64,000 bases of DNA from Arenicola marina (Eukaryota > Annelida > Polychaeta > Arenicolidae). Made by a program: the position numbers and the translations under genes. The notes beneath the pieces are model-generated. The model ran no database searches. It was not told the DNA's origin and saw only the letters and a list, made by a program, of their open reading frames with translations. Numbering within the stretch: position 1 is the first letter of the stretch; every line of letters begins with the position of its first letter. Shown one piece after another: positions 5,061 to 60,889 of this stretch. Where the stretch lies: contig OZ025258.1 of assembly GCA_964019135.1 (NCBI GenBank), positions 15,221,771 to 15,285,770 of the forward strand, in the 5' to 3' direction.

Positions 5061-5148
5061 CGTTGGTTACTGCAGTTACGTCCTCGAAATCTCTCTGCCT
5101 CTGACGCCCACGGCGGTGTTTACCGTTGACCTACTTATGGGCTAGCCC

Positions 5149-5940: not shown

Positions 5941-5944
5941 AATC

Positions 5945-9480: not shown

Positions 9481-9924
9481 TATTTATATTTATATCCCTG
9501 ACAAAAGAAACGTTGAAGCCGGGCACCTGAAACAACTCCATACGAATGCATGGTAAACGCATGCGGTAATCGGTGTACTAACCCGAAACACGCAGCGTCT
9601 ATTTTTGACGATAGATGTGGCTTGGGATATCTGGAACGGTCTATTGGGGTGCTGTTCTACAGTAGGTGTAGAGCTGGCCTCTTTCCAGTAGAGGAGCCCA
9701 GTATAAGCCCTATATATATATAAAGGAGAACAACCGAGAAACACAGCCGAGAGACCCAGCCGAAAGACTATACTAGACCCGCAACAACGGATGTAATCAC
9801 GTTAAATAAAGAAACCGAAAAGTGGAAATACCTTGTCCAAGTTAGTTACTTTCCAGTGTGAACGCGCGGCAGGAACGCAACAATATCTACAAATGTTTTA
9901 CATATATATATAAATAATTTAGAA

Positions 9925-10078
9925 ATATGCATAAATTATTTCAGATATCTATATATTATTTGCAGATATCTATAAATGATTTGCAGACATCTATAAATGA
10001 TTTGCAGATATCTATAAATGATTTGCAGCTACAGTATAAATGATTTGCAGATATCTATAAATTATATGCAGATATATT
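9925..10078. repeat. 21-bp minisatellite
   Basis: About seven tandem copies of a unit close to AGATATCTATAAATGATTTGC lie at the centre of the divergent B/C upstream region, between the two inverted promoter blocks. Nothing else recognisable is in 9480-10265 apart from (TA)n runs. Confidence 0.8.
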
Positions 10079-10264
10079 TCAAGAGGCCGATTCAGAGAGA
10101 TCTACACAAGTTTTACATATATATATAAAATAATTCTTCACGTGGACCACTAATACGGCAGACTATGCATACGGCGTTCGGCTTCCCGATAATCTGCACG
10201 TCATGTGACCATGTGCCGTACGAATAGTCACATGGCTTATTCATACGGACCCGTACGAATAGCC

Positions 10265-10506
10265 ACTACGTATAAAATATGAAGAGGGTGACACGCGGCG
10301 CCCCACATGATGTGGCCTAACTGCAGGGTCCATTGTCCGAAGGCGTGCTATCACCTACTTGTTACCAGGTGAAGGTCGCAGGTATGCGTGATAAACCCAC
10401 CCCGACCGAGCATAGGTCTCCCGATGCCAACTATATGTCAACCGTAAACACCGCCGTGGGCGTCAGAGGCAGAGAGATTTCGAGGACGTAACTGCAGTGA
10501 CCAACG
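10265..10506 (+). promoter_or_regulatory. Shared SULT upstream block, copy C
   Basis: Inverted counterpart of 9245-9480, ending at the copy C ATG (10507). The pair makes a palindrome with arms of about 240 bp and a loop of about 785 bp. Confidence 0.5.
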
Positions 10507-10790
10507 ATGGCGGAGGGTGAGCCTACGTTGAAAAAGAAATTGTATGAGATTCCTGGTCAGTTTATTCACCATGACGGTTTGAGTCTGCAGACTCCCTTCA
10601 CCCGCTCAGATATTGTGGATCGGGTCAAGACATGCACAATGGACTCCACTGATATCTTGGTCGCCGGTTACCCGAAGTCAGGCCAAGGTTTTCATACCGT
10701 AGCGGGATTTATGTCAACCCTAAAACGCGCCTCTCTGGACACGATCGGTTTATGAGATGTTTGCCCTAGGCTATATATGCGGCTCATAGA

Positions 10791-10931
10791 TTGCAAGGGA
10801 GGATGCAGGTGATGGGGGGGGGGGTCGGACCCCCCCCTTTTTGAAGAAGAACGCTATCTGAGGCGGCGTGGACCATGCCCCGCCCCCCCCGGACCTCTTT
10901 TTTAGATATCTGGATCCGCCCCTGCAATTGT
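10791..10931. mobile_element. Short MITE with CAGGGGCGGATCC-type ends, in SULT C intron
   Basis: The right end TGGATCCGCCCCTGCA is well kept; the left end is degraded (GCAAGGGAGGATGCAG). It sits at the same place as the MITEs in the introns of A and D, in inverted orientation as expected for the inverted copy. Confidence 0.6.
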
Positions 10932-11217
10932 CCCGAGACGCCCCCTCCCTTAGCGCTTCTACGGTGATCAGAACATGTAATAACTTCTCCGCCTTAAGCG
11001 TCTGATTAATTATAAATCCCTGATAGAATGTAAACGTTAGTGTAACGTTGTATTATGGTTAGATTGGTTATATTACTCACAATACTGATGATCTCTCCAA
11101 AACTGTATCTCCATTATTGTTATTTCTTTCATTAACATATGTTGTTAATTGTTTTCTCCGAGCCAGGTTTGTTTTTACATTGTATTCTAACGTTAAACGA
11201 AAGATCCCGATGTAACA

Positions 11218-11221
11218 TTAA
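11218..11221. other. Empty TTAA site matching MITE copy 1
   Basis: Flanks (CCGATGTAACA before, CAAGCG after) equal the two flanks of the 1996-2658 element in copy A, read in inverse orientation. Only one TTAA is present. Confidence 0.8.
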
Positions 11222-12213
11222 CAAGCGAACAGATGTAATGTTGTCATAACGCTCTCGATGCAAACGTTAATATACGAACTGTTATTTAATGTTGTCATAA
11301 CGCTCTATATAGATGCAAACGTTAATGTTCGAACTTATTTAAATGCGAAATTATAATGTTGTGGTAAAAAGGAAAAAAAATTGTCACCAGAGCAATGTCG
11401 CATACACATTATATAGCTTAACTATGTAAAATTACTTGATCTTCTTGTATCTTCTAATTTTAGGAACTTCGTGGATGCAAGGAACGGCTGATTTGGTAAT
11501 GCACGGAGGAGACACAGCGTATACCAGGGCAAGTCACCTGTATCAAAGAACACACTTTGTGGAAAACTTCTACCCCCCGGCCGGAGCTCCTGTGTTGGAT
11601 CTTCTTGCCAGCGTATCACTACCACGAGTCCTCAAGTCCCATCTTCCCACCACTTACTTCAGACGACAGGTGCTGGCAAGCAAGGTCAAGGTCGTTGTCA
11701 CCATGCGAAACCCCAAAGATGTTCTCGTGTCTTATTAACATTTCTACAAGATGACGAGTTTTTCCATATCCTTAAAGCGAAAGGTTTGTTATATGGTGAT
11801 CCGCTCGACTTGTGTAAAACATGGTGGGAGTTGAAGGATAACTCGAATGTCCTCGTGGTAAAATACGAAGACGCTATCACGAATAGCGCCGCTGTCATTC
11901 GCCAGGTGGCGACTCTGTATAGAACGCCGTTGTCTGATGATGTCATCTCGGTTATACAACACGAAACATGCTTTGACAGCATGAAAGCAAATCCCATGAC
12001 TAATTTTGTTGGTTTACCAGTGTTCGACACAACAGTATCTCACTTCATGCGGAAGGGTTCCATCGGTGACTGGCAGAACTATTTCTCCACAGAACAGAGT
12101 CAGTTGGTTGACGACCGTTGTGAAGCTGAGCTGCAACCTACCGGCCTAACGTTTCAGTACAAGATTTGAGAAGGTCACATATTTTTGATGTCGAGCTAAG
12201 CGTAGTATGTAAT

Positions 12214-12703
12214 AGTATGGAGGGCTACCGTATAGTGGCTACGGAAGACGAAGGCCTTATGATCAGGCTGAAAGTAAATTCGTATTGAAAGGGAATGAAT
12301 ATTTTCGAGAAGAAATAGATTTTCGTGTCTGGCAGCGCGAGAGTTTGATACCTTGTGGTATGTCAGCCTATATGGTATGTGGTGTGTTAATTTTACCATT
12401 ACATATATTTGCGATGTAAAGAGCCAATAAACCAAAATTATATGGGCGTGCGAGTAATGGTATGGAGGGCTACCGTATAGTGGCTACGGAAGACGAAGGC
12501 CTTATGATCAGGCTGAAAGTAAATTCGTATTGAAAGGGAATGAATATTTTCGAGAAGAAATAGATTTTCGTGTCTGGCAGCGCGAGAGTTTGATACCTTG
12601 TGGTATGTCAGCCTATATGGTATGTGGTGTGTTAATTTTACCATTACATATATTTGCGATGTAAAGAGCCAATAAACCAAAATTATATGGGCGTGCGAGT
12701 AAT
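12214..12703. repeat. Near-perfect 245-bp tandem duplication after SULT C
   Basis: 12214-12458 is repeated at 12459-12703 with almost no differences, so the duplication is recent. Each copy has an AATAAA (12426-12431 and 12671-12676), the probable poly(A) signal of the unit. The short open frames in it are identical by duplication and look non-coding. Confidence 0.85.
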
Positions 12704-12938
12704 GGTATTCCACTTATGTTACTATGGTTAGTAACTATGCAACTTAATTCCCGTGATTAATCTACTCTGTGCTATTTATATCTTGTTATGAACACTATTT
12801 TGCTGGCCAGCATCCTATACATGCATACGTTATGACGGTGTTATGGCAACGAACTCGATTGGGTCTCGGTTCCAGCCTGCAGCCTGGTTCCCAAACTGTG
12901 TAACCCTGAATTCTCTGTGACAGAGGGCGCTGCTGTTG

Positions 12939-13609
12939 TTAAAGGGAACCGCCAGCCTGGCCTCTAACGCTGCTTTACCGATTCATATAATACTCAATCG
13001 TCTATCCTCCAAATTACAGAATTTTACGTTCTATCTGTAGCTCACCATAGCATTTAAAAGTGACCGCCAGGCACGATTTGGCCGCCTACCCAGGCGGCAG
13101 CCCTTTTTGGAGGCGTGTCCGCGATTGACCAATCAGGAGGCGATGCTCTAATTTATTAAAACCGGAAATTGCGCCTATTGTGTGAGCAAAACAAGAGCGC
13201 ATGATAATCGCTAATATAAATAGCTGCGATTCTAACTCCAATCATGCCATTGTTGCGGATTCAATCGTCGCAAGACGTATGTCAATTTGTTTGAACGGTA
13301 CTTTTCCATGAAAGGCTAAGATCTTGCGCTACTGCACGGCTTGGAACTGCCGCTGTTCATCTAGAAATCGCGGCCCTGATCTCTCTCTCCGCGAGCTGTA
13401 ACGTATGGCGGCGCCATATGAATAGTCACAATATGCGTCACTTGCTCCGGCAAAATGGCGCGCTGCTCGACATTGATGGGGGCGGGTTGCCTTAATTTTT
13501 TTCTCCTTACCAGTCGGCCGAAACGAAGCGTTAACACTCGCCAATTTAATTTTAAGATGTAAACTTTCGGTGCAGATCGCGATTAAATTAGGTTGGCCAC
13601 CCGCTTTAA
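12939..13609. mobile_element. 663-bp TTAA-flanked MITE, copy 2 (3' of SULT C)
   Basis: The element is 12943-13605 between TTAA at 12939-12942 and 13606-13609. It is the same length as the 1996-2658 copy and highly similar. The empty site is preserved in the inverted arm beside copy D (TTAA at 18253-18256, between the CGCACTTTGAAG and CGACAACGGCAGCGCC flanks). The insertion therefore post-dates the C/D duplication. Confidence 0.85.
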
Positions 13610-14099
13610 CATCAAAGTGCGCGTCCGACAGCGCCCTCTAGGAACCAAGTTGCATTGACAGGTACCAGCATGCGCAAAACAAATATGGCGCCCGGATCGG
13701 ACATCGGTGTTCCGTAAAACCTTTTGCAAATACAGATAAGAAGTGAACACTTTTTAGATTGTTGGGAAGAATTCAATAGCTAAAAGCTTAATCTATGCAA
13801 AAATGTGATATCTGCATCCAGATAATTAAGAATTCCCAAATGCGCCTATTCTTCTTGAAAATCCCCGTGGGTAATACAGGCTGGAAGCGAGACCCAAAGC
13901 AGAAACGGAGTGGGTCTCACGATGCCAGGTTGACCCTCTGCCCACCTGTCTTCATGTTGAGGTCATGCAGTGGAACGTTATGATCAGTGCGATCACCACT
14001 ACTTGCCATGCCGCTATTTCGGAGAATGTGTCGGGCGCCAACAATACGCTGTCTCCCATATACAGCGACGAAGTAGAAGCAGGGAGCGTATAGTACCTT

Positions 14100-14940
14100 A
14101 GCAGTTACCCTGCTGAATGTTCCCCGTAATCTTGTTATTACAATTAAATTGTGATACGTTTGAGTTTAAAATTGGTGTGTGTCGAAGATAACATATTAAC
14201 ATATATGTATTACCATTAAAACGAAAAATGTCCCATCTTTTGGTATGTAATATATCAATATTGATTTTGTTACTTACAATGATGTAATATGTTTGCAGCT
14301 ATTCTCGTTTAAATACTGTTCCTTTGTATATGGCATTTGGAGTTACTAGCGTGTATATTGTACGTGACAATTATTTTGTTTATTCCTGTTTTAGTAGGGT
14401 ACGTACGTATTAGGTTAAGGATTAGGAAATTTGGAGAGTCGTTTATAGGAGAGAAGATGTAAACGCCATGACATTTTCTTATAATGCCTATTATCGTACA
14501 GGTGTAACGTTTCGAATTCCGATAGTTAATAGATTTTGCTTATTGTAATATTTCGATATCTGTTTATGATCAATGCAAAAGAACGTAACAATAGTTTTTA
14601 CGGAATATCATCAATTTAGATGTCTATTGCATAACTGCAACGATAGATCTTGCAATAAATAACAGGGTGTGGTTTAAAGACCGACTGCTGCATCTCGTAC
14701 AATGGAAATGTGGCTTTCTTGTGTACTACGTCATCAAATTCCGGTCTTGGCGACCGTTTTGTGGGGCTTTGGCATGCAGATAGGTCCAATACATATTAAA
14801 TTGAATGATTAATTTCTCCTTAACATAGTATACATGTTCTGTACTTCTGTAAGAATTAAAGTTTGCAAAGATTTATCAATGGACAATTGTTGTTAAGAAT
14901 ATATTTTATGATATTGTCACTGGGTTATGAGAGGTCAACC
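14100..14940. other. AT-rich 3' flank of SULT C, no gene seen
   Basis: 14100-14270 is the inner end of the inverted-repeat arm. 14460-14530 matches the flank near 70-120 and 6575-6620 in inverse orientation. No coding signal or RNA gene is recognised. Confidence 0.5.
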
Positions 14941-14942
14941 TG

Positions 14943-15505
14943 TGGCCTAGTAGATAGCGCCTTCGACTATAGACCGATCCAGGCTGTCAGTCATTCACTG
15001 ACGTCACTGTTGCTTTTATCCAATCATGTGGTGAAAATAGGTCTTCCACGTGCGTTATGTCGGACAAACAAGTCGGTCAAACAAAGCAGTGTGTCGGACA
15101 AACAGGTCAGTCAAACAAAGCAGCATGTCGCTTTGTTGTCAGTTTCAGAGATGAGTACTTCTCACAATATCTACCATCAGTTTGATTGTCAATTTCATAC
15201 TCACGAATGAGGCAAAAGGACACAAGCGTGGGCGGGGCTTATTGTCGGAACCTGGATCGGTCTATTGTCGAGTGTGCTCTGCTAGACAAACCCAAGCGGC
15301 CGGTGCGCAGTTTGAATCCCTCCTGTGCAATTTCCCATTGTCTTTCTTCGCAAAGAGTAGGGGGTTACTCCCGGAGACATGGCTCCTCTCTACCTCGACC
15401 CTTTCCATGTCGCGGTATGACCTACAGAGGTTAATCTGTTTAATGTGAACCAACTGGATTGTGAAGCAGACCCAGGGGAGTCTCCATGTATAAGGAGAAA
15501 GAATT
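14943..15505 (+). mobile_element. tRNA-headed SINE, family 2, split by a MITE
   Basis: The head GGCCTAGTAGATAGCGCC (14943-14969) resumes at about 15267 with TATTGTCGAGTGTGCTCTGC, a B-box-like GTTTGAATCCC, the TTCTTCGCAAAGAGTAGGGG module and the tail ending near 15490. The uninterrupted relative at 5945-6205 shows the two parts were once adjacent. Confidence 0.75.
14967..15268. mobile_element. MITE with ATAGACCGATCCAGG ends (nested in SINE)
   Basis: Inverted ends ATAGACCGATCCAGG and CCTGGATCGGTCTAT, flanked by a 2-3 bp TA/TAT duplication. The body includes repeated TGTCGGACAAACA segments and GTGGGCGGGGCTTA. No coding capacity. Other copies are at 15508-15704, 16009-16258, 17438-17580 and 55376-55630. 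Confidence 0.75.
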
Positions 15506-15507
15506 CC

Positions 15508-15704
15508 AGCATACTCCGACACTAAGCCCCGCCCATGCTTTTTCGTTAATTGTGAGTATGAAATTGACAATAGCTGATGGTAGGTACAAGTGAGAAGTAC
15601 TCCTCTCTGAAACTGACATGCTGATTTGTTTGTCCCACTTGTTTGTCCGATATAACGCACGTGGAAGACCTTTTTTTGTCACATGATTGGATAATCACCG
15701 TCTG
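15508..15704. mobile_element. ATAGACC MITE, truncated copy
   Basis: Inverted relative to 14967-15268. It has ACTCCGACACTAAGCCCCGC near the start and ends after ACATGATTGGATAA, so the GACCGATCC end is missing. Confidence 0.6.
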
Positions 15705-16008
15705 CCATACCCTTCACGATCGTGACACACGAAGTGTTCATGTCGCATGTTAAGCCATCTCACGGCCATGACAAACCTAGGGCACACACTGTCGGCCACT
15801 TTCGTTCACGACCATTGCAAACCCGGCCTTCACATCGGGAAAACATGCTCATTGGATTGTCACCTGGCATCTAGCCCAGAACCCTATAGGCTGTGTGTGG
15901 GCTCTCATTCTATACCCAAATTCTATAGTAAAATTTAAAAAAAAAATGTGTACAACTTCGTGCAATATAAAATGGTGGAATGTTGTCCATCTTGTGCCAG
16001 TAGGCAAT

Positions 16009-16258
16009 AGACCAATCCAGACTCCGACACTAAGCCCCGCCCACGCTTGAGTCCTTTTTCCTTACTCATGAGTATGACATTGACAATCATAGGTAATGGT
16101 GTGTACAAGTGAGAAGTACTCATCTCTGAAACTGACAAGGAAGTAACTAGATTTGTTTGTCCGACATAACGCACGTGGAAGACCTTTTTTCACCACAAGA
16201 TTGGATAAAAGCAACAGTGACGTCAGTGGATGATTGACAGCCTGAATCGGTCTATTAT
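16009..16258. mobile_element. ATAGACC MITE, near-complete copy
   Basis: It runs from ATAGACCAATCCAG to CTGAATCGGTCTAT with the family body in inverse orientation. Confidence 0.7.
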
Positions 16259-16532
16259 GGCTCCTTTGAAAGATTTCAATAACTTTGCAATCAGTAATTT
16301 TTCCTAAGAACGTACTGGTAACTTATTGAAACTAATTATGAAAACTATAAGCAATTCAATTTGTCATGTAAAGTTGATTTTTTCCGACAGAATGAAATAT
16401 GGCTATGATTCTTCAAACATAGTCATGGGTTCATGGCTACCTACTTGACGATGTTATCATGGTCACTATATTTGACCGGGATAGCGAAGACAGCAAACAA
16501 TATATTGGTTTGTCCTCTTTTCTGCACCAGCT

Positions 16533-16716
16533 GCAGGGGTAGATCCAGAATATTTGGATAGGGGAGCCGGTATCTGGTATCTGGATCCGATCAGGGTCGG
16601 ATCCAGATATGCTGGATAGGGGGGCCGGTTTCGGTTTTTATATGTTAAATGATATAAAGTTCGGAACTAAAAGGGGGGGCCTGGCCGGGTCGGCCCCCCT
16701 TGGATCCGCCCCTGAT
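16533..16716. mobile_element. CAGGGGCGGATCC-type MITE, possibly nested pair
   Basis: The left end CAGGGGTAGATCCAG and right end GGATCCGCCCCTG are clear. An internal GGGTCGGATCCAGATATGC suggests a second element or an internal duplication. Confidence 0.6.
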
Positions 16717-17437
16717 TTGACCCACATTTTGGTATATTAATTTAACCATGGACTAGCAGCGGATAACCTATATCATAAAACTGGGTAGATCGAGAAGGAA
16801 ATTAAACATAAAAGGAGTTAGAAACTAGGATGCAGGTCGATTTTCTATGTTAGGGGCAACCTTTTATCTGCATAGCTGACGAAGTACCCTGGCCAGATAG
16901 TGGGTGAGTTCGGGTAGTTCACCCAGAGGAGGATCACGAGGATTTCCAACATGGCGTCCAGGCTCAACAATACGTAATATATATATCAAGTGGTATATCG
17001 GCCCGCAAAAAAATCTGGAAATAATATTATAACAACTAGAATAAAATAATCCGTATCCGTTTATTGATTTTATGGTACTGTTTAACGATCTTCATGAATT
17101 GTGCAGTTCAGCAAGTGCAGCATTCACGCGGACCGCAGATTTTGTGTTTGGTTTATCTTGATCCGCACACTGGCGGAGAGTGTGAGTGCGCATGCTCCAA
17201 ATATCCGCTCTTAGTTTCATGAAACAACAAACACAGTTTATTCGAGATATAATGATTTTTTTTTATTTACATGAAATATATCTAAGTATTTGTTTGGCCA
17301 ACTGGGCATAGAATCTTACTCACTTACTACACTGTACGGCAGCTAGATTCTGTAGAGTTAATTTGGGGCCGTAATGCCCCAGAAAGTGATGAATACCTGT
17401 ACCGTCTGGCAGCTGGACACAGCACAGTTGCTGTGCC

Positions 17438-17580
17438 GATTATGTAGGTCTCCCACGTGCCTTTTTGTCGGACAAACAAGTGGGACAAACAAATCAGCAT
17501 TTCACTTTCGTGTCAGTTTCAGAGAAAAGAACTTCTCACTTGTACCTACCATCAGCTATTGTCAATTTTTGTCAATATCA
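17438..17580. mobile_element. ATAGACC MITE, truncated copy
   Basis: Body fragment with CCCACGTGCC, TGTCGGACAAACAAGTGGG and the CTACCATCAGCTATTGTCAA segment. Both termini are absent. It abuts the inner end of the SULT D arm. Confidence 0.6.
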
Positions 17581-18520
17581 AAATCAATATTGATATATTA
17601 CATACCAAAAGTTCGTCTTAATGGTAATACATATATGTTAATATGTCATCTTCGACACACACCAATTTTAAACTCAAACATGTCACAATTTACTAAGATT
17701 AAGAGGAACATTCAGCAGGGTAACTGCTAAGGTACTATACGCTCCCTGCTTTTAATTCGTCGCTATATATATGAGTTAGCATATTGTTGGCCACCGACAC
17801 ATTCTCCGAAATAGCGGCATGGCAAGTAGTGGTGATCGCACTGATCATAACGTTCCACTGCATGACCTCAACATGAAGACAGGTGGGCAGAGGGTCAACC
17901 TGGCCTCGTGAGACCCACTCCGTTCCTCCGTTGGGTCTCGGTTCCAGCCTGTATTTCCCAAGGGGATTTTCAAAACGAATAGGCGCATTTGGGAATTCTA
18001 AATTATCTGGATGCAGATTGGGGCTAAATATCACATTTTTGCATGGATTAATCTTTTAGCTATTAAATTCCTCCCAACAATCTAAAAAGTTTTCGCTTCT
18101 TAACTGTGTTTGCAAAAAAGGTTTTACGGAACACCGATGTCCGATCCGTGCGCCATATTTGTTTTTATAATAATAATAATAATGTCCAAGGATATGCATC
18201 ACAAGTAAACAAACATATATTACATAGACGCTGTCGGGCGCGCACTTTGAAGTTAACGACAACGGCAGCGCCCTCTGTAACACATAATTCACGGTTACAC
18301 AGTTTGGGAACCAGGCTATAGGCTGGACCCGAGACACAACTGAGTGCGTGCGATAACACCGTCATAACGTATGCATGTATAGGATGCTGGCCAGCAAAAT
18401 AGTGTTCATAACAAGATATAAATAGCACAGAGTAGATTAATCACGGGAATTAAGTTGCATAGTTACTAACCATATTAACATAAGTGGAATACCAATAATC
18501 GCACGCCCACATAATCTTGG

Positions 18521-18526
18521 TTTATT
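18521..18526 (-). promoter_or_regulatory. Probable poly(A) signal of SULT D
   Basis: AATAAA on the minus strand, about 236 bp past the copy D stop codon, in the same context (GAGCCAATAAACC) as the two signals beside copy C. Confidence 0.55.
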
Positions 18527-18761
18527 GGCTCTTTATATCGCTAATATATCTAATGGTAAAATTAACACACCACACACCATATAGGCTGACATACCACAAG
18601 GTATTAAACTCTCGCGCTGCCAGACACGAAAATCTACTTCTTCTCGAAAATATGAATTTACTTTCCGCCTGATCATATGGCCTTCGTCTTCCGTAGGCAC
18701 TATACGGTAGTCCTCCATACTATTTTTACGCTTAGCTCGACATCAAAACTATGTGACCTTC

Positions 18762-21148
18762 TCAAATCTTGTACTGAAACGTTAAGCCGATAGGTTGCAG
18801 CTCAGCTTCACAACGGTCGTCAACAAACTGACTCTGTTCTATGGAGAAATAGTTCTGCCAGTCACCGATGGAACCCTTCCGCATGAAGTGAGATACTGTT
18901 GTGTCGAACACTGGTAAACCAACAAAATTAGTCATGGGATTTGCTTTCATGCTGTCAAAGCATGTTTCGCGTTGTATAACCGAGATGACATCATCAGACA
19001 ACGGCATTCCATACAGGGTCGCCACCTGGCGAATGACAGCGGCGCTATTCGTGATAGCGTCTTCGTATTTCACCACGAGGACATTCGAGTTATCCTTCAA
19101 CTCCCACCATGTTTTATACCAGTCGAGCGGATCACCATATAACAAACCTTTCGCTTTAAAGATATCGAAAAACTCATCCCACGTTCCGCGGAAAGGGCCC
19201 AACAGTGTGTTCATCTTGTAGAAATGGTAATAAGACACGAGAACATCTTTGGGGTTTCGCATGGTGACAACGACCTTGACCTTGCTTGCCAGTACCTGTC
19301 GTCTGAAGTAAGTGGCGGGAAGATGGGACTTGAGGACTCGTGGTGGTGATACGCTGGCAAGAAGATCCAACACAGGAACTCCGGCCGGAGGGTAGAAGTT
19401 TTCCACAAAGTGTGTTCGTTCATATAGGTGACTTGCCCTGGTATACGCTGTGTCTCCTCCGTGCATTACCAAATCAGCCGTTTCTTGCATCCACGAAGTT
19501 CCTTAATTAGAAGAATACAAGAAGTAATTTTATGTAGATCTAGTTATGGTACATAATTTGTATGCGGCATTGCTCCGGTGACAAATTTTTACCAAAATAT
19601 TAACATTTCGCATTTAAATAAGTTCGAACATTAACGTTTGCAACGAGAGCGTTATGACAACATTACACCTCTCCGCTTGTCAATGTTGCATCGGACGCGA
19701 GGGGGCGTCTCGAGACAATTGCAGGGGCGGATCCAGAAATTTGAAAAAGAGGGGGTTCAAACTTGCCACCGAGGGGGTGTTCTTCCTCAAAAACGGGGGG
19801 GGGGGGACCGAACACCCGTACACCCCCCCCCCCCCCCCCCCACACACACACCTGAATCCTCCCTTGCAACTGTCGGGTTTAACGGCATGGATATTTCGAG
19901 CAAGCGCACTCACTCAGTAGACCATGATCTTAATGCTTCTTGGCTCAGTATGTTAATTAAAAGATATAGACCAATGTCAGACGAACGTGTTAAAACAATA
20001 AAATAACACTCGCAATAAGCCTGCTTAAAATTTGCATAACGAGCTGACCATTACAACGGGTGCACCCAAAATAAACTTTGTATTATTCAGTGTCTGTAGC
20101 AAGTGAAATGTTGCTCGATGTGTCTGTGACAGCCATAGGCTATCCATACTTTTGACGGGAGACCGCGATTGCTAGTAGCGTCGTGTGTATGTGTAGGAGC
20201 GTCTGCTCATTAGCATATTGTGGTGCTGTCCACCTATGAGTATTAGTTATATTAGAGGAATGTTATGTGTGTCATGTTTTTTTTTTGTCTGTCCAATCGT
20301 CTTGTCCGGATTAGCGTTTCGTGGCCCATCCCAATTAGGGAAGCCCAATAAATAGGGCTCGATGCCCATGTATGTCACATTTTCCGCTTCGTCCCAACAC
20401 AGGACCAACCTCTGGGGCTGGATGCGGCGGAAGTCCACCATGTATGTTTACGTCTATACAATTTAATAAAAATATAGAACCTTTGCCATCTTATAATTAA
20501 TGTGAAATGTCAAACGATCCGGATTCACCCAATTTTCACTTTTGCAGAGGGAAAATTCAAGAAGTTGGATTGTTTTGGTCATTGGCAGATAATTTGTGCT
20601 AGATATGGTAGGTCTTTTTAGCTTGGAACCCTAATTATGAACCCTATAATTAAGTCCCTTTAACTTAGGTTTGTCTTCTTATACGCAAAGGCGACATTCA
20701 AAAATAGCACAAAAGTTCGATATACAACTTTAATTATTTAAGTCACCCATCCCTGCGGCCATGTTCCATTCCACTTTAAGCATCTCAAAACCCGATCTTT
20801 CCCTGAGAGGCGTGTTTCACAGCTGACCTAAATCCGGCTGCGGTATGAAAACTTTTTCACGGGATCCCTGCGGCCATGTTCCATTCCACTTTAAGCATCT
20901 CAAAACCCGATCTTGCCCTGAGAGGCGTGTTTCACAGCTGACCTAAATCCGGCTGCGGTATGAAAACACTTACCCGACTTCGGGTAACCGGCGATCAAGA
21001 TATCACTGGAGTCCGTTGTGAATGTCTTGACCCGATCCACAATATCTGGGCGGATGAAGGGAGTCTGCAGAATCAAACCGTCATGGTGCATAAACTGACC
21101 AGGAATCTCGTACAATTTCTTTTTCAACGTGGGCTCACCCTCCGCCAT
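18762..21148 (-). CDS. Cytosolic sulfotransferase, copy D (two exons)
   Basis: Exon 1 is 21148-20974 (GTAAG donor) and exon 2 is 19501-18762 (AAG acceptor), with a 1.47 kb intron, giving about 304 residues. The PSB loop reads YPKSGTSW, and LKSHLP, RNPKDVLVSYYHF and RKGSIGDWQNYFS are intact, so it should be a working PAPS-dependent enzyme; the acceptor is unknown. It ends in LTFQYKI without the extra tail of A and B. The intron holds a CAGGGGCGGATCC MITE (19722-19872), a ~385-bp insertion (20124-20508) and a local duplication next to the donor (20748-20967). Confidence 0.9.
19722..19872. mobile_element. CAGGGGCGGATCC MITE in SULT D intron
   Basis: The best-kept member at this locus: TGCAGGGGCGGATCCAG on the left and CTGAATCCTCCCTTGCA on the right, with long G and C runs inside. 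Open frames across it are products of the homopolymers. Confidence 0.65.
20124..20508. mobile_element. ~385-bp insertion of uncertain class in SULT D intron
   Basis: Copy A reads straight through (GATGTGTCAAACGATC near 4280-4305) where D is interrupted and resumes at ATGTCAAACGATCC, with a TGTC-like direct repeat at the edges. It starts TGTGACAGCC and contains AATAAATAGGG and AATAAAAATAT. It resembles a solo LTR in layout but does not end in CA, so the class is open. Confidence 0.4.
20748..20967. repeat. ~117-bp tandem duplication beside the SULT D donor
   Basis: The segment from CCCTGCGGCCATGTTCC to GGCTGCGGTATGAAAAC occurs at about 20748-20850 and again at 20865-20967. The second copy continues into the exon 1 donor; the first does not carry a GTAAG. 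Confidence 0.8.
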
Positions 21149-31399: not shown

Positions 31400-34300
31400 C
31401 TATTTGTGTGAAGAACTTAATCATGATGATGTTTCGAATGAGAGTGCAGTTTGTGGCGTGATATGCATTGTAACTTGTGGTTTTAAGCGTTCAATGTTAC
31501 CCCAAATACGTATGATTCTCATTTCGCTAACGCCAAGAATAGGGCATTGTTACAGAAGAATCCAGAGAGCTGGGATTCCCAGGCCAGGGTGCCTGGACAG
31601 CACTGTTTTCCAATGATGCTTCCGATTCCAGACAATGGAGATAATGTGCAGGTAGATTAAGAGAATTAGATGGACGCTCCCCATCCAATTTGAAAATACG
31701 ACATTAAATTAAATATATATATCGTTACTCATTTAACTATGTTCGCAACAATAAATATGTAGCAGATTATTAACTTTACATATGTTTTGAGATCGCTGTA
31801 TCTCGTTGACCCTGCAAAAACTCCACTGATCTAAACAGCGGTTTCGACGAAAATGGGGAGCATCTGTTTTTCTAATACCTTCGGTTCAGAATTGACCAGG
31901 AGGTCAGAGTCGACAACAACCTATGTAAACCAAGAAAATGTATGCATTTCCAAAAGCTTCAATCAGCGCTTTGTGAGCGATAAGTTATTCGATTTTTCCT
32001 GTTTACTGTGATGGTTATTTTGTGCAATAAAAGATGTATGACTGCTTATCTGACTATAACTTGTGAATCGCTTCTTGCGTAGCCTTCTCTACGTTTCAAC
32101 TTCACTTTAAAGATAAGTTTCATTCGAATATATTGCTGCGCATTAGTTCGACATGTCAACGATATATGATTCCGGCTGAAAAACGAACATGAATTGGCGT
32201 TTTAGAAGCCCACTTAAAGCAGCCGCATAGCCGGTTGCAGATATAAAACGCACTGTGAAAAAATGCCATGCTCCAATGTGGACATAAACCTTGTTTCAGG
32301 CTCCCATGGGGATAGTTTCTTGACAAACTCACTTCCATCTTCCACTTCCACTGGAAATCATTTTTTGACGTAAACGGGGATCGTTTTTTGACATAAATTT
32401 AACGCTCTTATCTATGTTCCCATCTAGATAGTTCTTTGATATGAACGGGGGAGGCGGGGGGGGGGGGGGCGGCGTCGCAAGGGGTATTTCCGTTCATCGG
32501 GAATGGGTTCTTCATTTTACCGTGAACTGGGAATAAGGCCAATAATTCTTGGTGAACTAGGAATGAGGTATTAGCCGACCGTCGATTTTCAGTAATCGTG
32601 AACTGTGAATTTTAATATTAAATAACCGTGCATCAAGAAATTGCAAATTTAGTGTTATGTATCCACCCTTCCTTTGTATGCGGGGAATTATTTAAATTCA
32701 TCTTGACCTGGGAATATACAAAAATTATTTTCGTGATCTGGGTACCCGACCCCCCCTTGCCACCCCCCCCCCCCCCCCCCCCCATGAACGCGCTCCCGTA
32801 AAGATAATCGCCAGCGCCTTTTAACGCCATTCAGTCGTACGTACACTACCGCGTGTTATATGATATTGGGTACGACATTTCATTAACATCCTGAAACAAA
32901 TATGACACATTTTCGAGCAAATTTCACATTTATTTAGCTGTTTACACACCCAGTTTATATATTGCCATCAACGCCATGCTACATAGCTCTTGTATGAACT
33001 AATATGCTACACGGATATGACATAATGCATATGCAGGGTACTTCTGGAAATATTGGCAGGGAGCGAGATGACGTACTTAGTTCGACGCATCCTGTTGGTA
33101 TTAGGACTAAATAAACATATATATAACATTATGTGGGTCATATATGTCTCATATAACAGGATGCCGCTACGATCATATGCACATCACCCATGCAAGGTTC
33201 GGCTTCGGTTAGCCGCCGCCTGACGAGGCAGTGGTGACCGCATGCAAGACTCATCCGTCAGTTTTTAATCGAGATAGAGGCCTTTATCAGTTCATGTGCA
33301 ATACATTACATACGACATCGTCAGTTTGCCGTAATACAGAAGGAGGCATATGAAGTGCCTTGTATGCTTAGAGGCACAACCTTCGATCAGTGGCAGAGGT
33401 CGAGTCAGACTAGTGATTGGCTTATCAATCGTGTCTGACCGGCAATATATCTGCAGAACGTATACATGTATGACGAAGCCTACATAAAGTAAGCGAATAT
33501 TTATACAGGTTAGTAACGTTTAGCCTTGGTGCCAGATCATTAAAGTTATGTTTAGTGCCTGCATTGAATAACACGGCGATTTTCACGGTATCATTGGACG
33601 TGGCCTAATGGCATTGGTTGAGCCGTTTACATATATATAGCTTCGCATGATATTTGTCAGCGCATAGCGCTAATTAACTGACCTGTGATAACCTATACTG
33701 TGTGACAATTAAGATTTCGCCTGTTTATCAGCTTATTTCGGGGAATCCGGCCTAGGCGTTATAGAGTATAAGTCAGTGATAAATTTCGTGATAAATAAAT
33801 ATAGGAAACCGGATATTATTACTCATTGATTGTAAAGAAAGCTCCGGCATTCAGAACATTTACATTTTTCACGAAGAGTCCAATTAATTAAGACTTGGTC
33901 CATGCATGCAGGTGTGAGATTTAGGTTTCGTGAACTGCACGTTGGGAAAGTCTTCTCTGTCGCGGAGAAAAGTTCCAACTTTGTGACGTTAAAAGACGAA
34001 CCCTCTGCATAAACCGAAAAGTTTCTGGAAGGGGAGAAACATCAAAACTTTGTAAAGAAGCTGAAGTGAACAGGTGTAACAATAAGGTGATAAAAGTGCA
34101 CAAATGTAAGTGTAGTCTACATCTACTGCTTGAAAATTTAACGAGTTGAATAACTTAACAGAGAGAACTAACTTACATTTGAAGAAGTCTGGCCACCAGG
34201 CCCCACTTTGATGTAGCCTGAAAATCAGACTGTCACGACGTCTGATATTTAGGTTACCAGAGCTTAGGCCTTAGCAGCTTAGTGCGAGCCTGTGACAGTG

Positions 34301-34440
34301 TGAGTGATGAAGTGGCCTGTCGTAAATTTTCAGGCTAACTTTGATGGTGAATAAGTGTTACTGTTAGGCCTATGGCTATATATATATGAACATATGACTT
34401 AGGCCTACCAAAGCTGGGCTAAAGTGCGAGCCTGTGAGTG
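31400..34440. other. No gene recognised; AT-rich with G/C homopolymers
   Basis: A G-run lies at 32451-32471 and a long C-run at 32763-32782. I see no coding frame with splice support, no tRNA and no terminal-repeat element. Confidence 0.5.
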
Positions 34441-34468
34441 ATGAAGTGGCCTGTCATAAACATATGCC

Positions 34469-34553
34469 ATGTTATCTCTAGCTTTGACATCAAAACCCAT
34501 ATACAAGGTAACCTTGTATATGGGTTTTGATGTCAAAGCTATGTTATCTCTAG
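34469..34553. repeat. Perfect 30-bp-arm hairpin flanked by 13-bp direct repeats
   Basis: Arms 34479-34508 and 34512-34541 are perfect inverted repeats with a 3-nt loop. ATGTTATCTCTAG occurs at 34469-34481 and 34541-34553. The architecture is the same as at 25609-25715. Confidence 0.9.
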
Positions 34554-34638
34554 CCCAGAACCCTAGGGCTAGGCTGTGTGGGCTAAAACACATGATTCTT
34601 CAACCATAGGCATAGCCGGATTCATGGCTATGTTATAT

Positions 34639-34715
34639 TCAAAGTCTAAACTTATATAATTATGCCACAACTTTCATAATGATAATGAAAGTTGTGGTAT
34701 AAGTTTGGACTTTGA
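34639..34715. repeat. Interrupted hairpin palindrome
   Basis: CCACAACTTTCAT is answered by ATGAAAGTTGTGG across a short loop, and the outer TCAAAGTCTAAACTTATA by TATAAGTTTGGACTTTGA, with about 8 extra bases on the left arm. Confidence 0.8.
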
Positions 34716-34892
34716 TATGCATATGATGGTAGCAGCATATCCTGTTATATGATGTATATATAATATATGTTATGAAAACTATGAAAGTCCTAGTCTTCAT
34801 TGTTGAGCTACATGACTCATGAGCATCAGTCGCAGGTGGGTGGGGAGGAGGCAGTGTATAACCATACACTCATATGTCATATAATGAGTATT

Positions 34893-35060
34893 GCAGGGGC
34901 AGATCCAGGAATTTGAAAAAGGGGTGGTCTATTGAAATATAACAGATAACGTTCTTCCTCAAAAAGGGGAGGGGTCTATGCCTCAGATAGCTTAAATTTT
35001 GCAAATAAAAACATACGTTTTTCCTCAAACCCTCCCTTCCCGCCTCCCCCTCCCCCCTTA
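34893..35060. mobile_element. CAGGGGCGGATCC-type MITE, degraded
   Basis: Starts TGCAGGGGCAGATCCAGG then AATTTGAAAAAGGGG, as in the 19722-19872 element. The right end is not clear. Confidence 0.5.
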
Positions 35061-35942
35061 GAACCGTCCATGTATTGTACAACTGACAAGATTCTTAACC
35101 ATTATACACAACTGCTTAACTTCAAATATTGTCCTCATGATCATTGTTCATAGTTTACTCCCCCCTTTGACCGTTGACATTTGGATAATTTTACCACCAG
35201 ACCAGGGTAGGTAGGGTATAGAATATGTGTGAAGGGGGAGGGGTTTAATTGTAATCATGTATGCATTGGGTCAAAGACAATATTTGAAGGTTGTAGAAGC
35301 ATGTAAATTAAGATGACAGGAAATGGAGATGGCAAGTTGTTATTGATTAATCTGCTTAAAAATCATTTTAGACACCAGTTTAGAACACAACTTCATCTTT
35401 TATTCTATTTAACGTATATATATGGGCAGTTTTACAGTCACAGGCACCTTTTTGTCTCACTAGGGTCAAAAAATAAAGTTCTTTATTTAAGTGTGATTAT
35501 GTTACATTCTGGTAGGATAGGCTTTCTAGTGTCATGAAAAATGCATTACATTATAAGTAATCACTTACTTACTAAATTATTGGCTTTTGAGTAAGGAAAA
35601 TGGAAAGTAATAACATAATTATACAGACCAGGAAATTGCTAAAAAAAATGTCAGCAAAGTATCAAGTAACATGAATAACATCATTTAGATTGATTTAATA
35701 GATATATGTCTTGGCTGCTCCAGCAAAAACAGCTTAATAATATCCTAAAAATTCTGTCTATTATGAATTTCAAGAAAGTACATGAGACAAAATTCTCACA
35801 TGAGACCATACCAACCTTTGTCACAATCAATTGAATCACTTTATATACATAGAAAGTCAAATTCCTGTTTTGATTTGATGTCTATTGCAAACATGTTTTG
35901 TTGTTTTATTAGCATATGTGTCACTATCTTTTACCGAGCTGT

Positions 35943-36880
35943 CAAAGAAACATGTCCTTTCCGCAGTATTTGGGTCGGAAGGGACAACTTTTTTTGACAC
36001 ATCATATATTTGAGAGAATAAAAGTATTGTATAGTTTAACAAAAAAAAAACCGAATTTGTTTATATACCTTAAATACAAAAGCCACAGGCCTTACATTAT
36101 GTTGTTATTCACCGGGTAATAACCATGATTTGTCCTAGGCAATTAGTTAAATGCATAATTATATAAATATTGGTGCCATTATATATACTTTTAGTTTAAT
36201 CATGAGTTTTGAGCACTAACTATACATGTTGTAGTCAAATAGTGCAGTGATTGTAAGGTAAATTACAGCTTTGGTTGTTTTTATGGAACCCATATCATGA
36301 CATGGAATGTGTAGGAAAGGACATATTTTTGACCACATATTGTAGAATCATTGTTTTGGTATTAAATCTATTCTAACCTTCATGTAGCGTTGAAATAACT
36401 AGCTCATTTTATTATACATACAAGGATTTAATGCCTGACCTGGCATATCTGTCAAAAATAACTAACTTCAGGTGAACCAGACAAGAGGTGTAAATATATA
36501 TATCTAATATGTCATATTAATCACTTAACATAGTCTTATCATCAGTATGTTCTCATCTTCGTAGGGTATAATGACTATTACTTAGTATTAAAAACCTGCA
36601 TGCATATGGCTATATTTCTGCCGACTTAATTACTTATGGTAGCATGTGCTTCAAATGTGTCGGAAAGGACAATTTTTGACAACATAATGTTTATTTCAAT
36701 ACTGTTTAATGCCTTAAAAACTAGCAACATTATATGCCAGTTGCAACGTCACAATACCATTCACTAACCGGCAAAACAATACTTTTAAACGGAACATCAA
36801 ATTATCTAATCACCATAGTCATTCAGAAATTACGACATTTTCAAACTTATTGTATATGTGTCGGAAAGAACAAATGTTTT
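35943..36880. repeat. Left subterminal motif cluster (GTCGGAAAGGACA)
   Basis: Copies at about 35952 (minus), 35974, 36313, 36659 and 36860 (plus). The first two form an inverted pair (TGTCAAAG..ATGTCCTTTCCG and CGGAAGGGACAAC..TTTGACA). Each GGAAAGGACA core is followed 5-12 bp later by TTTTGAC or a near match. Confidence 0.8.
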
Positions 36881-37048
36881 ACCACATAACAGGACTCTAA
36901 ACAATAGCAATTCTACGGTTCATAACAACCTGTATTCGCAGGACATATATAGCAACTGTTCTTATTCTATCCCTAAATACTGATCTTAGTTTTCACAAAT
37001 AGCTAAGCATGTTAAGGTGCAGCAACACATAATGCACCGAAGATTAAT

Positions 37049-38207
37049 TTATTTTCCTTTCAATGTGGCCAAACAGTCTTCCAGTTCAGCCTTGTTGAAT
37101 TGAAACTGGAGACCTCTTCCAGGCAGCAATTTTGGTTGTGAAATCTTGATCACTTCTTCTGATGGTATCCAGGACTGATCTGTTGCATGTGGCCAGGAAT
37201 AGATGGTTCTGTTGGCAGTAATCTCCCCATCCATGTATCGCACCAAAAGTTCTCCAGACTCATCCACCTCCAAAACCTAAACAGCAACATCGAAAGATAA
37301 ATCCATGTTCTGCTACTGACTTAAACTCTTTATGAAATTATGAATTAAATGCTGCTGGTAAGACAATCATGTCAGCTCGAACAAGTTTCTTGCTTCTGGA
37401 ACAACCTACCTTGGCTAGGTACAGACATCTGCTTTTCCTAGACTGTAAACAGCATGCGACAAAGTCTTCCACTTCTGTCATCAGTATGGCCCTGCTTAAC
37501 AGAAATAATGTTGATTTTAATTTTGGGGGATTACGGACACAAGTAAAATTGAAGATAGTAGATCGCTATATTTTCTAAAATCATATCTGTTTGCCTACCT
37601 TGAGACCACTGGGTATTTGATTGGCTCCAGGCTGACATAATGCTTCTGGCGTTTGATGAAACCCAGGGAAAGTGTGGAAGTGAATTCTTCACCAAACGTG
37701 TGTTGCCTTTCAACTTCCAGTACACATAGCTTTACTTTGAGCATAAGTGCAGCACATTTGACAACAATTTCATCTGCATATGTTCCATCGCATGCCATTT
37801 GTGCCAAGTACTCCTCCATGGGTTCAGTTATAAATGCCTGGAGATCTGTCTTTTGAGTCTGAAATCAAGTAACACGATGATAAAGCCAGGTAACATGCTA
37901 TAATAACTGACTAAACTGTAAGGAGTAATAGTGCATTCCCTACTAGTTTATCTGCTGCAATATATATATGTCTACGGACAGCATTAGTATTTTAACTTAC
38001 CTCAGGTAAGTCTCTGATGTATTGAACTAGCATATGCCTCAGTTGATGATGAGAATAAACCGTCAATCCCGCCAAATCAAGCTGATCACTGAGGGCCCAG
38101 AAGAAGCAGTTCCCATCACTGGGTGTTGCGCGAACTGATAAATCACGTTCTGTCTGTAAGGCATGTTCAAATGCTGACATCTGTCGTGCTGCTTCAAGGT
38201 TTGCCAA
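37049..38207 (-). CDS. OTU-domain cysteine protease (transposon cargo), three exons
   Basis: Exons: about 38207-38001, 37858-37599 and 37276-37049. OTU proteases cleave ubiquitin-like chains. The catalytic motif PSDGNCFFWALSDQL (Asp and Cys) lies in the first exon and the histidine region IKRQKHYVSLEPI in the second, about 112 residues apart as expected. Donors GTAAGT and GTAGGC and acceptor TTTCAG are good for the first junction. The C-terminal exon (VRYMDGEITANRTIYSWPHA) is not a family I can name. The first in-frame Met is at 38180; upstream codons run back to a stop at about 38233, so an earlier exon is possible. The second junction has a phase mismatch (AG before GTAGGC, acceptor in phase 0), so either a weak donor 7 bp upstream is used or the gene is decaying. 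Confidence 0.8.
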
Positions 38208-38379
38208 AGTCCAAGTCCAGGGTTCGTTTATTTACCTAAATGTACCACCAATGCTATATCAAAGTTGCCAATGCCATCTAAACAAAATGAAAATGTGCAG
38301 CTGATACTGGAAAGTGACTAAGAACATCTGTCATACAGGACAGTAGCATGAAAGGACCCAAGGAGAGAGGTTATGATCC

Positions 38380-39140
38380 AATGTCAAAATAAATGTCCTT
38401 TCCGACACACTTACTGTCAATGGCATAGCTGCTGCATTATGATACATGCAACTTAAAACTGACACCAAACTGATGTGCAACTCATGATAGCCATATTGAC
38501 TCAACCAAACACCACAGAAACATATTGAAAAGTTCATATATTTGTTTGTGGCATTTGGTCAAGATTGTCAAACAACATTTTACCATCATTAACTGGTGAA
38601 AAATTATAATTTACAGTAATAGCCTTACAGTAAACTAAACTTACAGAAACACAGGTTGCTAGTACTCCAGTTAACAACAGTTTTTTTATTAAACTGCACT
38701 GAATTTTCAGTTGTAAGGTCTTGGAAGAGAAAAATACAATGTGCCGGAAAGGACATTCAGATCTTTGACATACTTTAAGTCATAGAACTTTTTCTAAAAA
38801 GCAGAAAGGCACTTAAACTTATGTTAGAAAGATTAAGCAGTTAACAAAATATCGGAAAAAAGCACTGCAGTTCCAAGTACAGTGTATGGTAAAGAAACAA
38901 ACAAGAAATATCCATGTGTCGGAAAGGACATCATTTTGACGGAAATTTGAGTCTCTATGTTCAGAGTCTTATTACTCATGTACTGTTCGTACTTGTATCT
39001 GGTGACTTATATTTTTCTTGTAAGGACTCCTTGCAGTAACTTATGGACTTACAATCAATCCATAAGTAGTTATCTATTAATAGTTAATTATCAGATAAGA
39101 TCAAGTCGGAAAGGACTTTTTGTTTGACGGAAACATCATG
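38380..39140. repeat. Right subterminal motif cluster (GTCGGAAAGGACA)
   Basis: Copies at about 38380-38412 (minus), 38740, 38917 and 39105 (plus), with the same core and TTTTGAC partner as the left cluster. As on the left, the first copy is inverted relative to the rest. Confidence 0.8.
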
Positions 39141-40009
39141 TTATGTGAAAACCCATTTTTTGTGGCAAGTTGGCTTATATGTAATGTTGAAAGATTATCA
39201 GAGGCAAAAATATAAACCACACTGTGTAAAGCCATTCCATTCTCAACCTATAATTTGAAAATAGTGATTTGCGCAATCATCTAAATCAATTTTGTGCTAA
39301 ATGAGACAAAAAAAGTTGCTGTTTTCAAGACTAAAATGACTATATCTTTGCACTCAAAAGAGATAATATCATTCTGTCTTCTGTTTTTATGTGCTTGACC
39401 AAGGTACCAGTTGGTGCAATACCACATTGCCAGCCCTTGTGTACCGTTATTTTTTAAATACACCAAATGATGTCTAATTACAGAGGTGCCTATGACTGTA
39501 AAACTGCCCATATACACAATGCTGTAGCCGGTGGTGGCAATGGAACAGAGAGGCATTGAGTGCTAGCTATGTCAGTGGTAAGAGAGTCCCTCCCCCCCCA
39601 CCTACCTTCCTTGTCAAATTGACCAGCAGTCAAAGAGGACAGCGGTTGAAGTGGGCATACACCTTGTACATTACTGGTAATATTAAGTTTGTTAATAATC
39701 ATTGCTACTATAAATATAGTATATAGACTGTATTATATAAGCTGCATACCTGACTTTGGCATCAAAACTACATGTTTCCAGAACTTATTCCAAAATAAGT
39801 TGTATATTACAAGTTTCACCTTGGCCTCAGTTTCCCCTCTGAAGTCTGCGACTAGTTACACCTATATATTAATTCATTCCTTTTTACAAATCTATCCCCC
39901 TCCACACACCAAGGTGACTTAAAATGGCCAAAATGTTATATGTACACCTATAACATTTTTAATACAAGCCACAGCTTTCAATGGGTTGTTTATGGTATGA
40001 CAGTTTCTC

Positions 40010-40112
40010 TGGATATTGACAGGTCAATTTACCTGGATAGTGACAGGTCAAATTTACCTGGATATTGACAGGTCAATTTACCTGGATAGGGACAGATCAA
40101 TTTACCTGGATA
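40010..40112. repeat. ~29-bp tandem repeat
   Basis: Four copies of a unit near GATATTGACAGGTCAATTTA followed by CCTG. Confidence 0.85.
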
Positions 40113-40730
40113 TGCCGGTTAGGATCTGCTCCTTTTTGTCCTGTTTTCAGTTTGGTAATGTTTTTAGCACAACTTTAGCTTATATTAATCTTCTGTGTTT
40201 ACTCTCTTACTTTCTTAAGTTATTATGCCCCAAATAGTAGAAGGGAATACTTTTTCCACTGATTTATGCACATACTGATTGAAATTCTGGGAGCAAGAAA
40301 ATTGATGTCAAAGAGGCATACAAATGCTTGTGCTTTTACATTGAGACTTAGGTTCCTTTCGCTCATTGGCTTCAATTTAGCAAAAAAATGTGTGATTATC
40401 TATATAAGTGTAACTGCACATCCAATCTCTTTTATTTAATACTGTTCTTTTCAATACTCTTTTCCCTTGGTTCATTGCCGAACTCTAAGTAGATTTATAT
40501 GCTATTTTGGCAGCAAATAGACATCAACATTATGGCCATGCATTATCTTCACAACTTTGATATATTTTTATATTGATCCCCACCCCTCCCCTGCTCCACC
40601 CCATCCACGGCACCCTGGCCATCCCACCCCCAACGCCGCTCACTTCAGTCTTTAGCTTGGCGGTTATCAAGTAACCCTGGGAATCGAGTGCTGCTAGCTG
40701 CCAGCCACAGACACCGCTATATAGCACACC

Positions 40731-49047
<8,317 letters not shown>

Positions 49048-59464: not shown

Positions 59465-60733
59465 TCAGTGCTTCTTCATTGGGACCAGGATGACCAGGCG
59501 ACCATCCTTGCCCAATCTGGAGCGGGTATGGTCGACGTCCGCCATCTCCGGGAGGGAGTACTTCTTAATGAGTTTGACGGTGGGCTTTCCCTGCTCATCC
59601 ACCCCTTCGGCCGTCACCAGCAAAACATTCTCGTCTGTGACCTGGACGTGGAGGTCCTTGGCACTGACCCCGGGTCCCGTGTTGACCAGGATCTCCAGAG
59701 TCTGGGAGCCGTCGTCGTTTTTCCGGATCTCGTAAACGAAGGACTTGATGTCGCGCCCGGGACTCTTCTTCTCCAACGGGAAGTAGTAGATGAGGGGGAC
59801 TTCAACGCGCAGGACGCCATCACGGGAAACGTGGCAGGATAGCCGCTCGTCGTCGGCGAATCTCGGCAGCTGGATCTTGTGGGTGAAGGTGCGGGTTAAG
59901 GTGCCGTGGCCCTCGGCCTTGCGGCACTGCACGATGCACTTGCACGTCAGCTTGTCGACGTTGACGGAGATGTTGCGCGGGGAGTACTCGCTGACGTCGA
60001 AGAAGGCCTTGAAGATGGGGACCCCCGAGCTGTTGTCCACGAAGCTGTTGTCACCCTCCTGCTTGGCGTTCTTGGGCACGCCTCGCATCATGCTGCCGTT
60101 GGTCAAGCGGTCCACCTCCCCTTTCCACTCCTGCCGCTGCTCCTCCAACTCATGCTGGACCTTCTTCAGGAACTTCTTCTCGCCGGGACGGCGTCCGGAG
60201 TTGGTGGCGCCCTGCTGGGGACTTCCGGTCTCCAGATCGCGTATCTCCCTCTGGTGGTCGCTGATTTCTCGCACCATCCGGGGTTTCCCCGATTCGGAGG
60301 AATCGGATCTGGATATGGAGATCTGGCGTGGACCCCTATCCGTGGTTGTCGTGGTTACCCCGCGCTGCTGTTGCTGTTGCTGTTGACCTTGGAGTCGGTC
60401 CAACTTATGCTGTTGCCGCTGCCTCTCCTCCTGGAGTCGTTCCACTTCGCGCAGTTGATGTTGCCTTTCCTCTTGGAGTTGTTCCAGTTGGAGTTGTTGA
60501 TGCGAGCTCGGGGGCTGGCGTTGCTGACGTTGGTGCTGCTCCTGCTGACGGTGTTGGCGTTGTCGTTGCTGTTGTTGCTGCAGCTGCTGCCTGGGGTTCT
60601 GCTGGGCGTGCGGCTGATCGTCATACTCTCGACTTCGAGTCACGTTGTGGACGCGTTCTCGCGTGATGTGGTTACTTCTGGAGGGTTCCGCGTACGGGTT
60701 CGACATGTAGTCGAAGGCACTGCCTTGCATCAT
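59465..60733 (-). CDS. Small heat-shock protein with two alpha-crystallin domains and a Q-rich coiled coil
   Basis: Small heat-shock proteins hold unfolding clients as ATP-independent chaperones. The exon starts at a strong acceptor (CTTTCTCCTGACTTTGCAG, exon from about 60756), so the open frame further 5' is intron; the first Met is at 60733, giving 422 residues. Residues ~38-125 are Gln/Arg-rich then heptad-like (QLEQLQEERQHQLREVERLQ). ACD1 at ~232-315: FKAFFDVSEYSPRNISVNVD, TRTFTHKIQLP, SRDGVLRVEVPL. ACD2 at ~329-422: IRKNDDGSQTLEILVNTG, KDLHVQVTDENVLLVTAEG, KDGRLVILVPM. Most members have one ACD; two-ACD forms are known in flatworms. The C-terminus ends VPMKKH without a separate IxI tail. 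If coding begins in an upstream exon, a few residues precede Met. Confidence 0.88.
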   Translation of the reverse strand: MMQGSAFDYMSNPYAEPSRSNHITRERVHNVTRSREYDDQPHAQQNPRQQLQQQQQRQRQHRQQEQHQRQQRQPPSSHQQLQLEQLQEERQHQLREVERLQEERQRQQHKLDRLQGQQQQQQQRGVTTTTTDRGPRQISISRSDSSESGKPRMVREISDHQREIRDLETGSPQQGATNSGRRPGEKKFLKKVQHELEEQRQEWKGEVDRLTNGSMMRGVPKNAKQEGDNSFVDNSSGVPIFKAFFDVSEYSPRNISVNVDKLTCKCIVQCRKAEGHGTLTRTFTHKIQLPRFADDERLSCHVSRDGVLRVEVPLIYYFPLEKKSPGRDIKSFVYEIRKNDDGSQTLEILVNTGPGVSAKDLHVQVTDENVLLVTAEGVDEQGKPTVKLIKKYSLPEMADVDHTRSRLGKDGRLVILVPMKKH

Positions 60734-60889
60734 CTTGTCTCGGCGTCCTCTCGCGATACTCTGCAAAGTCAGGAGAAAGAACATGCATCAAAAAACAGAA
60801 ATTTATGTTCACACCAAAACTATATTTATAAGCTTATTGCACATCAAACCATACAATGCCAAATACGTTAATAATTAAGAGCTGTCCCT

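Follow-up and report, generated by a model that had tools for sequence, protein, structure and literature searches.

A 64,000-nucleotide stretch of the genome of the polychaete Arenicola marina (contig OZ025258.1, positions 15,221,771 to 15,285,770; hereafter the window, to which all coordinates refer) contains a unit of 4,088 bp at 35,423-39,510, which carries terminal inverted repeats (TIRs) at both ends, TATA outside each of them, and a single recognisable gene, encoding a protein of the OTU protease type. Counted from TGGGCAG, the TIRs are 27 bp long (left, 35,423-35,449, plus strand; right, 39,484-39,510, minus strand) and match at 26 of 27 positions; when TATA is included, the arms (35,419-35,449 and 39,484-39,514) are complementary at 30 of 31. 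Exact pairing runs for at most 22 bp; for inverted pairs 100-10,000 bp apart, the longest exact pair was 13-16 bp when the window was simulated 40 times with a first-order Markov model. When as many as three mismatches were tolerated, the 17-bp core of the TIR occurs twice in the 64 kb, both times exactly and once at each end; in 100 shuffles it occurred 0.15 times on average, and two or more occurrences were obtained in one shuffle. The TIR pair that an earlier inspection of the letters alone (the sequence-only reading) had described, with one mismatch, 4.09 kb apart and with TATA outside, is therefore confirmed.

Exact inverted pairs of 17-mers (100-10,000 bp apart) are also numerous within a duplicated region at 1-20 kb. 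Outside that region there are four: the TIR pair, one pair of copies of a motif described below, and two near 43.9 kb. A 371-bp unit at 43,909-44,279, with two nested exact inverted-repeat pairs (23 and 20 bp), is perhaps a small miniature inverted-repeat transposable element, and it sits between pieces that resemble, by eye, esterase coding sequence. At 1,047-19,502, several copies of what by eye look like sulfotransferase genes were found in both orientations, together with long inverted duplications.

The OTU gene and the DNA beside it

The OTU gene lies on the minus strand and, in our splice model, has four exons, three GT-AG introns, and 249 codons plus a stop. Exon 1 (38,001-38,180) begins with the ATG at 38,180 and encodes the DGNC motif, exon 2 (37,599-37,858) encodes the HY motif, and exons 3 (37,410-37,491) and 4 (37,049-37,276) complete the frame, with an AATAAA overlapping the stop codon in exon 4. 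The G+C content is 0.445 in exons versus 0.338 in introns. The observed/expected (o/e) CpG ratio of the exons is 0.27, and the frame is still open. The predicted protein matches the Pfam family OTU (PF02338) with an E-value of 3.8e-12 and 47.3 bits against a curated cut-off of 23.3, which places it in this family; the match covers residues 20-121 (profile positions 1-102 of 128) and ends before HY. Among 16 solved sequences with E-values up to 1, OTUD3 is the best relative (1.8e-7), followed by viral OTU proteases (0.006-0.01), and both DGNC and HY align to OTUD3. These data bear out the spliced OTU gene with both motifs that had been proposed from the sequence.

The last hundred residues, which include the region encoded by exon 4, matched no Pfam family above cut-off (best sub-threshold E-value 0.21), and the C-terminal part had PDB matches at 0.18 or worse (Prp8), with an entry for Medulloblastoma antigen MU-MB-50.72 at 1.7. 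This part may be a Tudor-like domain, reminiscent of OTUD4/ALG13 or of domains in invertebrate transposon proteins; with no match better than these, the region is left unnamed.

The DNA on the two sides of the OTU gene (1,626 bp and 1,330 bp, 2,956 bp together) was compared with Pfam in all six reading frames per side, stop codons being masked as X. None of these 12 frames matched a transposase, integrase, helicase or nuclease family at an E-value up to 1, and the sole listing was a bacterial sporulation family at a chance-level 0.052. The earlier statement that the element has no transposase thus holds for the frames flanking the gene; a small remnant may lie in the introns or antisense to the gene (37,049-38,180). 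PADLOC returned no families.

A bipartite motif array in a CpG-poor zone

Two further features, neither of them part of the sequence-only reading, are an array of bipartite motifs and a zone of low CpG. When scanned with up to two mismatches, GTCGGAAAGGAC occurs 11 times in the window, nine of them inside the element, compared with a mean of 3.4 and a maximum of 10 in shuffles of the whole window. All nine copies in the element, and neither of the two others, have TTTGAC (up to one mismatch) 4-16 bases further on; it is exact in eight copies and reads TTTTAC in one. When the element was simulated 200 times with a first-order Markov model, such bipartite sites averaged 0.01, with a maximum of one. 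Relaxing the first half to four mismatches while requiring an exact TTTGAC left the eight copies within the element unchanged and added one outside, at 63,423.

Five copies lie to the left of the OTU gene, four to the right and none within it. By the position of the first half, those on the left are at 35,954-35,965 (copy 1, minus strand, its TTTGAC half following), 35,974-35,985, 36,311-36,322, 36,659-36,670 and 36,860-36,871 (copies 2 to 5, plus strand, copy 5 being the one with TTTTAC), and those on the right are at 38,395-38,406 (copy 6, minus strand), 38,743-38,754, 38,918-38,929 and 39,105-39,116 (copies 7 to 9, plus strand). Seven copies thus point one way and two the opposite way, with copies 1 and 2 forming a divergent pair. 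Judging by their repetition, the nine motifs are probably bound by a protein that belongs to the element family. CpG is kept in eight of the nine copies, and no copy decayed to TG or CA was found when the first half was allowed up to four mismatches and TTTGAC none; this retention may reflect protection or recent spread, and we build no claim on it.

The element and both its flanks lie in a CpG-poor zone at 34,001-40,400, in which all 16 bins of 400 bp have a CpG o/e of 0.10-0.59. At the edges of the zone, the 400-bp bins rise to 1.20 on the left and to 0.69 and then 1.12 on the right. At a bin size of 2 kb, the three bins covering 34,001-40,000 have ratios of 0.27-0.40 and the other 29 have 0.52-1.29; the bin with 0.52 contains a tandem array. 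Within the element, TG and CA are raised (1.39 and 1.34, respectively). Five repeat pairs with one copy in the zone and one outside were compared, of which one was informative. In this pair (40,170-40,385 in the zone and 3,880-4,084 outside, 73%), one CpG is present in the zone copy and nine in the outside copy, with five CpG reading TG or CA in the zone and one change the other way. The other four pairs are shorter: the second and third have one versus one and one versus no CpG in the zone and outside, respectively, and the fourth and fifth are without such change, each keeping the same one CpG. The simplest reading is that the zone would be subject to germline methylation in an otherwise mostly unmethylated stretch. 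Methylation may have settled in and around a transposon here, or the zone may be a methylated transcription unit with a transposon inside it.

The left part of the zone also holds a 63-bp palindrome at 34,479-34,541, whose 31-nt arms match perfectly and are separated by a single base, as well as another foldback, at 34,660-34,702 (90%). Elsewhere in the window, a 440-codon minus-strand frame at 59,468-60,787 encodes what by eye looks like a small heat-shock protein, in which a glutamine-rich stretch precedes two crystallin-type domains. Rfam and tRNA searches gave no match in the window.

Termini compared with known transposons

OTU domains in transposons are already in print, for Ginger1 (PMC2836005) and for Helitrons (PMC9741609). 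Like the present putative transposon, Ginger1 elements are animal DNA transposons with TIRs, about 2.6-7 kb long, that make a 4-bp target duplication (a putative one here), encode an OTU domain in some families and have introns in most of the families listed (PMC2836005). In Ginger1, however, the OTU domain sits at the C-terminus of the transposase (it is the listed C-terminal domain in 7 of 16 families in Table 1 of PMC2836005), whereas no transposase was found here, the 12 frames beside the gene giving no Pfam match to a Gypsy-integrase-like enzyme. The targets and ends differ as well: Ginger1 duplications are CCGG in 75% and CCGT/ACGG in 24% of cases, the ends read TGTNR and the TIRs are about 40-270 bp long (PMC2836005), while the present element has TATA, TGGGC and 27 bp.

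Ginger2/TDD elements come closer in their target, a 4-bp duplication in RTATAY, to which A-TATA-C would correspond here, although the TA run in the left flank makes this a weak likeness. They differ in their TGTNR ends and TIRs of 45-297 bp, and the Ginger2 section of the same paper describes no OTU domain (PMC2836005). An H2C2 and DDE transposase of the Ginger2/TDD kind was not found within the element in the 12 frames; a partner elsewhere is possible. Helitrons are not known to have TIRs, and membership of the present element, which has TIRs and gave no RepHel-type match in these frames, was rejected. Helitrons and Helentrons resemble it as transposons with deubiquitinase-type domains, but they are rolling-circle elements with RepHel (PMC9741609). 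Membership of ISL2EU (PHIS) was likewise rejected: when the ends are read from GGGCAG, they begin with GG and are flanked by AT, as in that group, but the target expected is A-AT-T and the one found is T-AT-A, and no transposase or YqaJ match was obtained (PMC4482050).

The sequence-only reading had named no superfamily with these termini, and as far as sequence can tell they fit none of those compared (Ginger1, Ginger2/TDD, ISL2EU and Helitron), Ginger2 being matched on the target alone, where A-TATA-C fits RTATAY and TGGGC does not fit TGTNR. Among the literature matches listed, judged by titles and abstract openings and with Repbase not covered, there was no TIR element with OTU as its only gene and a motif array confined to it.

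Nature and possible role of the element

We consider that the element is probably, at odds of about 0.6, a DNA transposon that moves by cut and paste but is non-autonomous, and that the one protein recognisable in it would be an OTU-type accessory. The structural part of the earlier proposal, a DNA transposon with OTU as its only recognisable gene, agrees with this anatomy; its mobility is putative.

Several observations weigh against this interpretation. The element is known from a single locus, and the term transposon therefore rests on its anatomy. The left TATA (35,419-35,422) sits within a TATATATA run, so that the two TATA sequences (the right one at 39,511-39,514) are a plausible, not a proven, 4-bp target-site duplication; because TATA is palindromic, a duplicated target is also indistinguishable from a longer TIR. 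In the protein, V stands two residues past the histidine of HY, at a position occupied by D in OTUD3, and catalysis is therefore not assured. No homologs of the OTU protein were found in the viral and prokaryote collections: peptide patterns of the protein and its C-terminal part matched 1, 16 and 14 stretches in viral and genome contigs, with no relative by tblastn. For the ends, the 17-mer TIR core matched 14 stretches in viral contigs, which were dropped because several are expected by chance on our own estimate and none of the 14 loci has the 25-mer; the 25-mer was absent from the genome contigs, and the bipartite motif from the viral contigs. As the collections scanned are viral and prokaryotic, absence there says little about animals. 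Finally, the CpG-poor zone runs 1.4 kb to the left and 0.9 kb to the right past the TIRs. Low CpG is thus shared by the element and its surroundings, and we rejected CpG loss as proof of methylation directed at a transposable element.

This extent of the zone, with its sharp edges, would be expected if a broadly transcribed gene with a methylated body spanned the zone and had an old transposon within it, the OTU gene having been kept by the host; the OTU frame, open despite the low CpG of its exons, is in line with such domestication. Methylation spreading out of a transposon would explain the zone as well, however, and the AATAAA over the stop codon indicates that the gene may end within the element. 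The flanks within the zone hold only short open frames, of at most 93 aa, and the TIRs still match at all but one position. We regard a host or domesticated gene as unlikely.

Alternatively, the element may be a deletion derivative of a transposon with OTU at the C-terminus of its transposase, as in the 7 of 16 Ginger1 families of Table 1 (PMC2836005), so that the OTU would be a leftover rather than a separate gene. Against this, no integrase or transposase remnant was found in the 12 frames beside the gene, an ATG stands directly ahead of the OTU domain, and the CCGG/CCGT targets and TGTNR ends of Ginger1 (PMC2836005) contrast with TATA and TGGGC here, making such an origin quite improbable. 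That unrelated inverted repeats flank an ordinary gene by chance, as a single locus would allow, is hardly credible given an exact 22-bp pair, compared with at most 16 bp in the 40 simulations, and a motif array lying wholly between the ends.

If the element is a non-autonomous transposon, a transposase from a relative elsewhere in the genome would bind its ends and insert it at TATA, and the 249-aa OTU-type protein would be an accessory, not the mover. The sequence-only reading had suggested that this protein protects the transposition machinery or counters a host response, and the motif array fits such an accessory role without proving it. The OTU-type protein would deubiquitinate the partner transposase, which would thereby be spared from degradation. 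For Helitrons and Helentrons, OTU or VTD domains have been proposed to prevent proteasomal degradation of transposition proteins, and transposon OTU domains had so far had no test of catalytic activity (PMC9741609). Alternatively, the protein would take ubiquitin off the chromatin of the element, easing its silencing.

Chromatin-directed deubiquitination is worth testing because the motif array recalls the VANDAL transposons of Arabidopsis, whose VANC proteins bind noncoding DNA in which short motifs recur, inducing the loss of silent marks (PMC10398659). In both cases a transposon protein is accompanied by short repeated motifs in noncoding transposon DNA; the VANDAL motifs are in tandem, with VANC21 binding seen by ChIP-seq (PMC10398659), whereas those described here are dispersed and known from sequence. 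In an animal counterpart of VANC, the nine motifs would recruit the OTU-type protein, either by itself or together with a partner, ubiquitin would be stripped from local chromatin or silencing factors, and the element and its relatives would escape silencing in a sequence-specific way. We think this full scheme improbable.

In the publications considered here, the OTU or VTD domain of a transposon belongs to the protein that carries out transposition, or to the reading frame of that protein (Ginger1, PMC2836005; Helitrons, PMC9741609). In an element with OTU alone and a motif array, the accessory function would be uncoupled from the transposase and so become testable, opening the questions of whether deubiquitination aids transposition and whether it is aimed at the element's own DNA.

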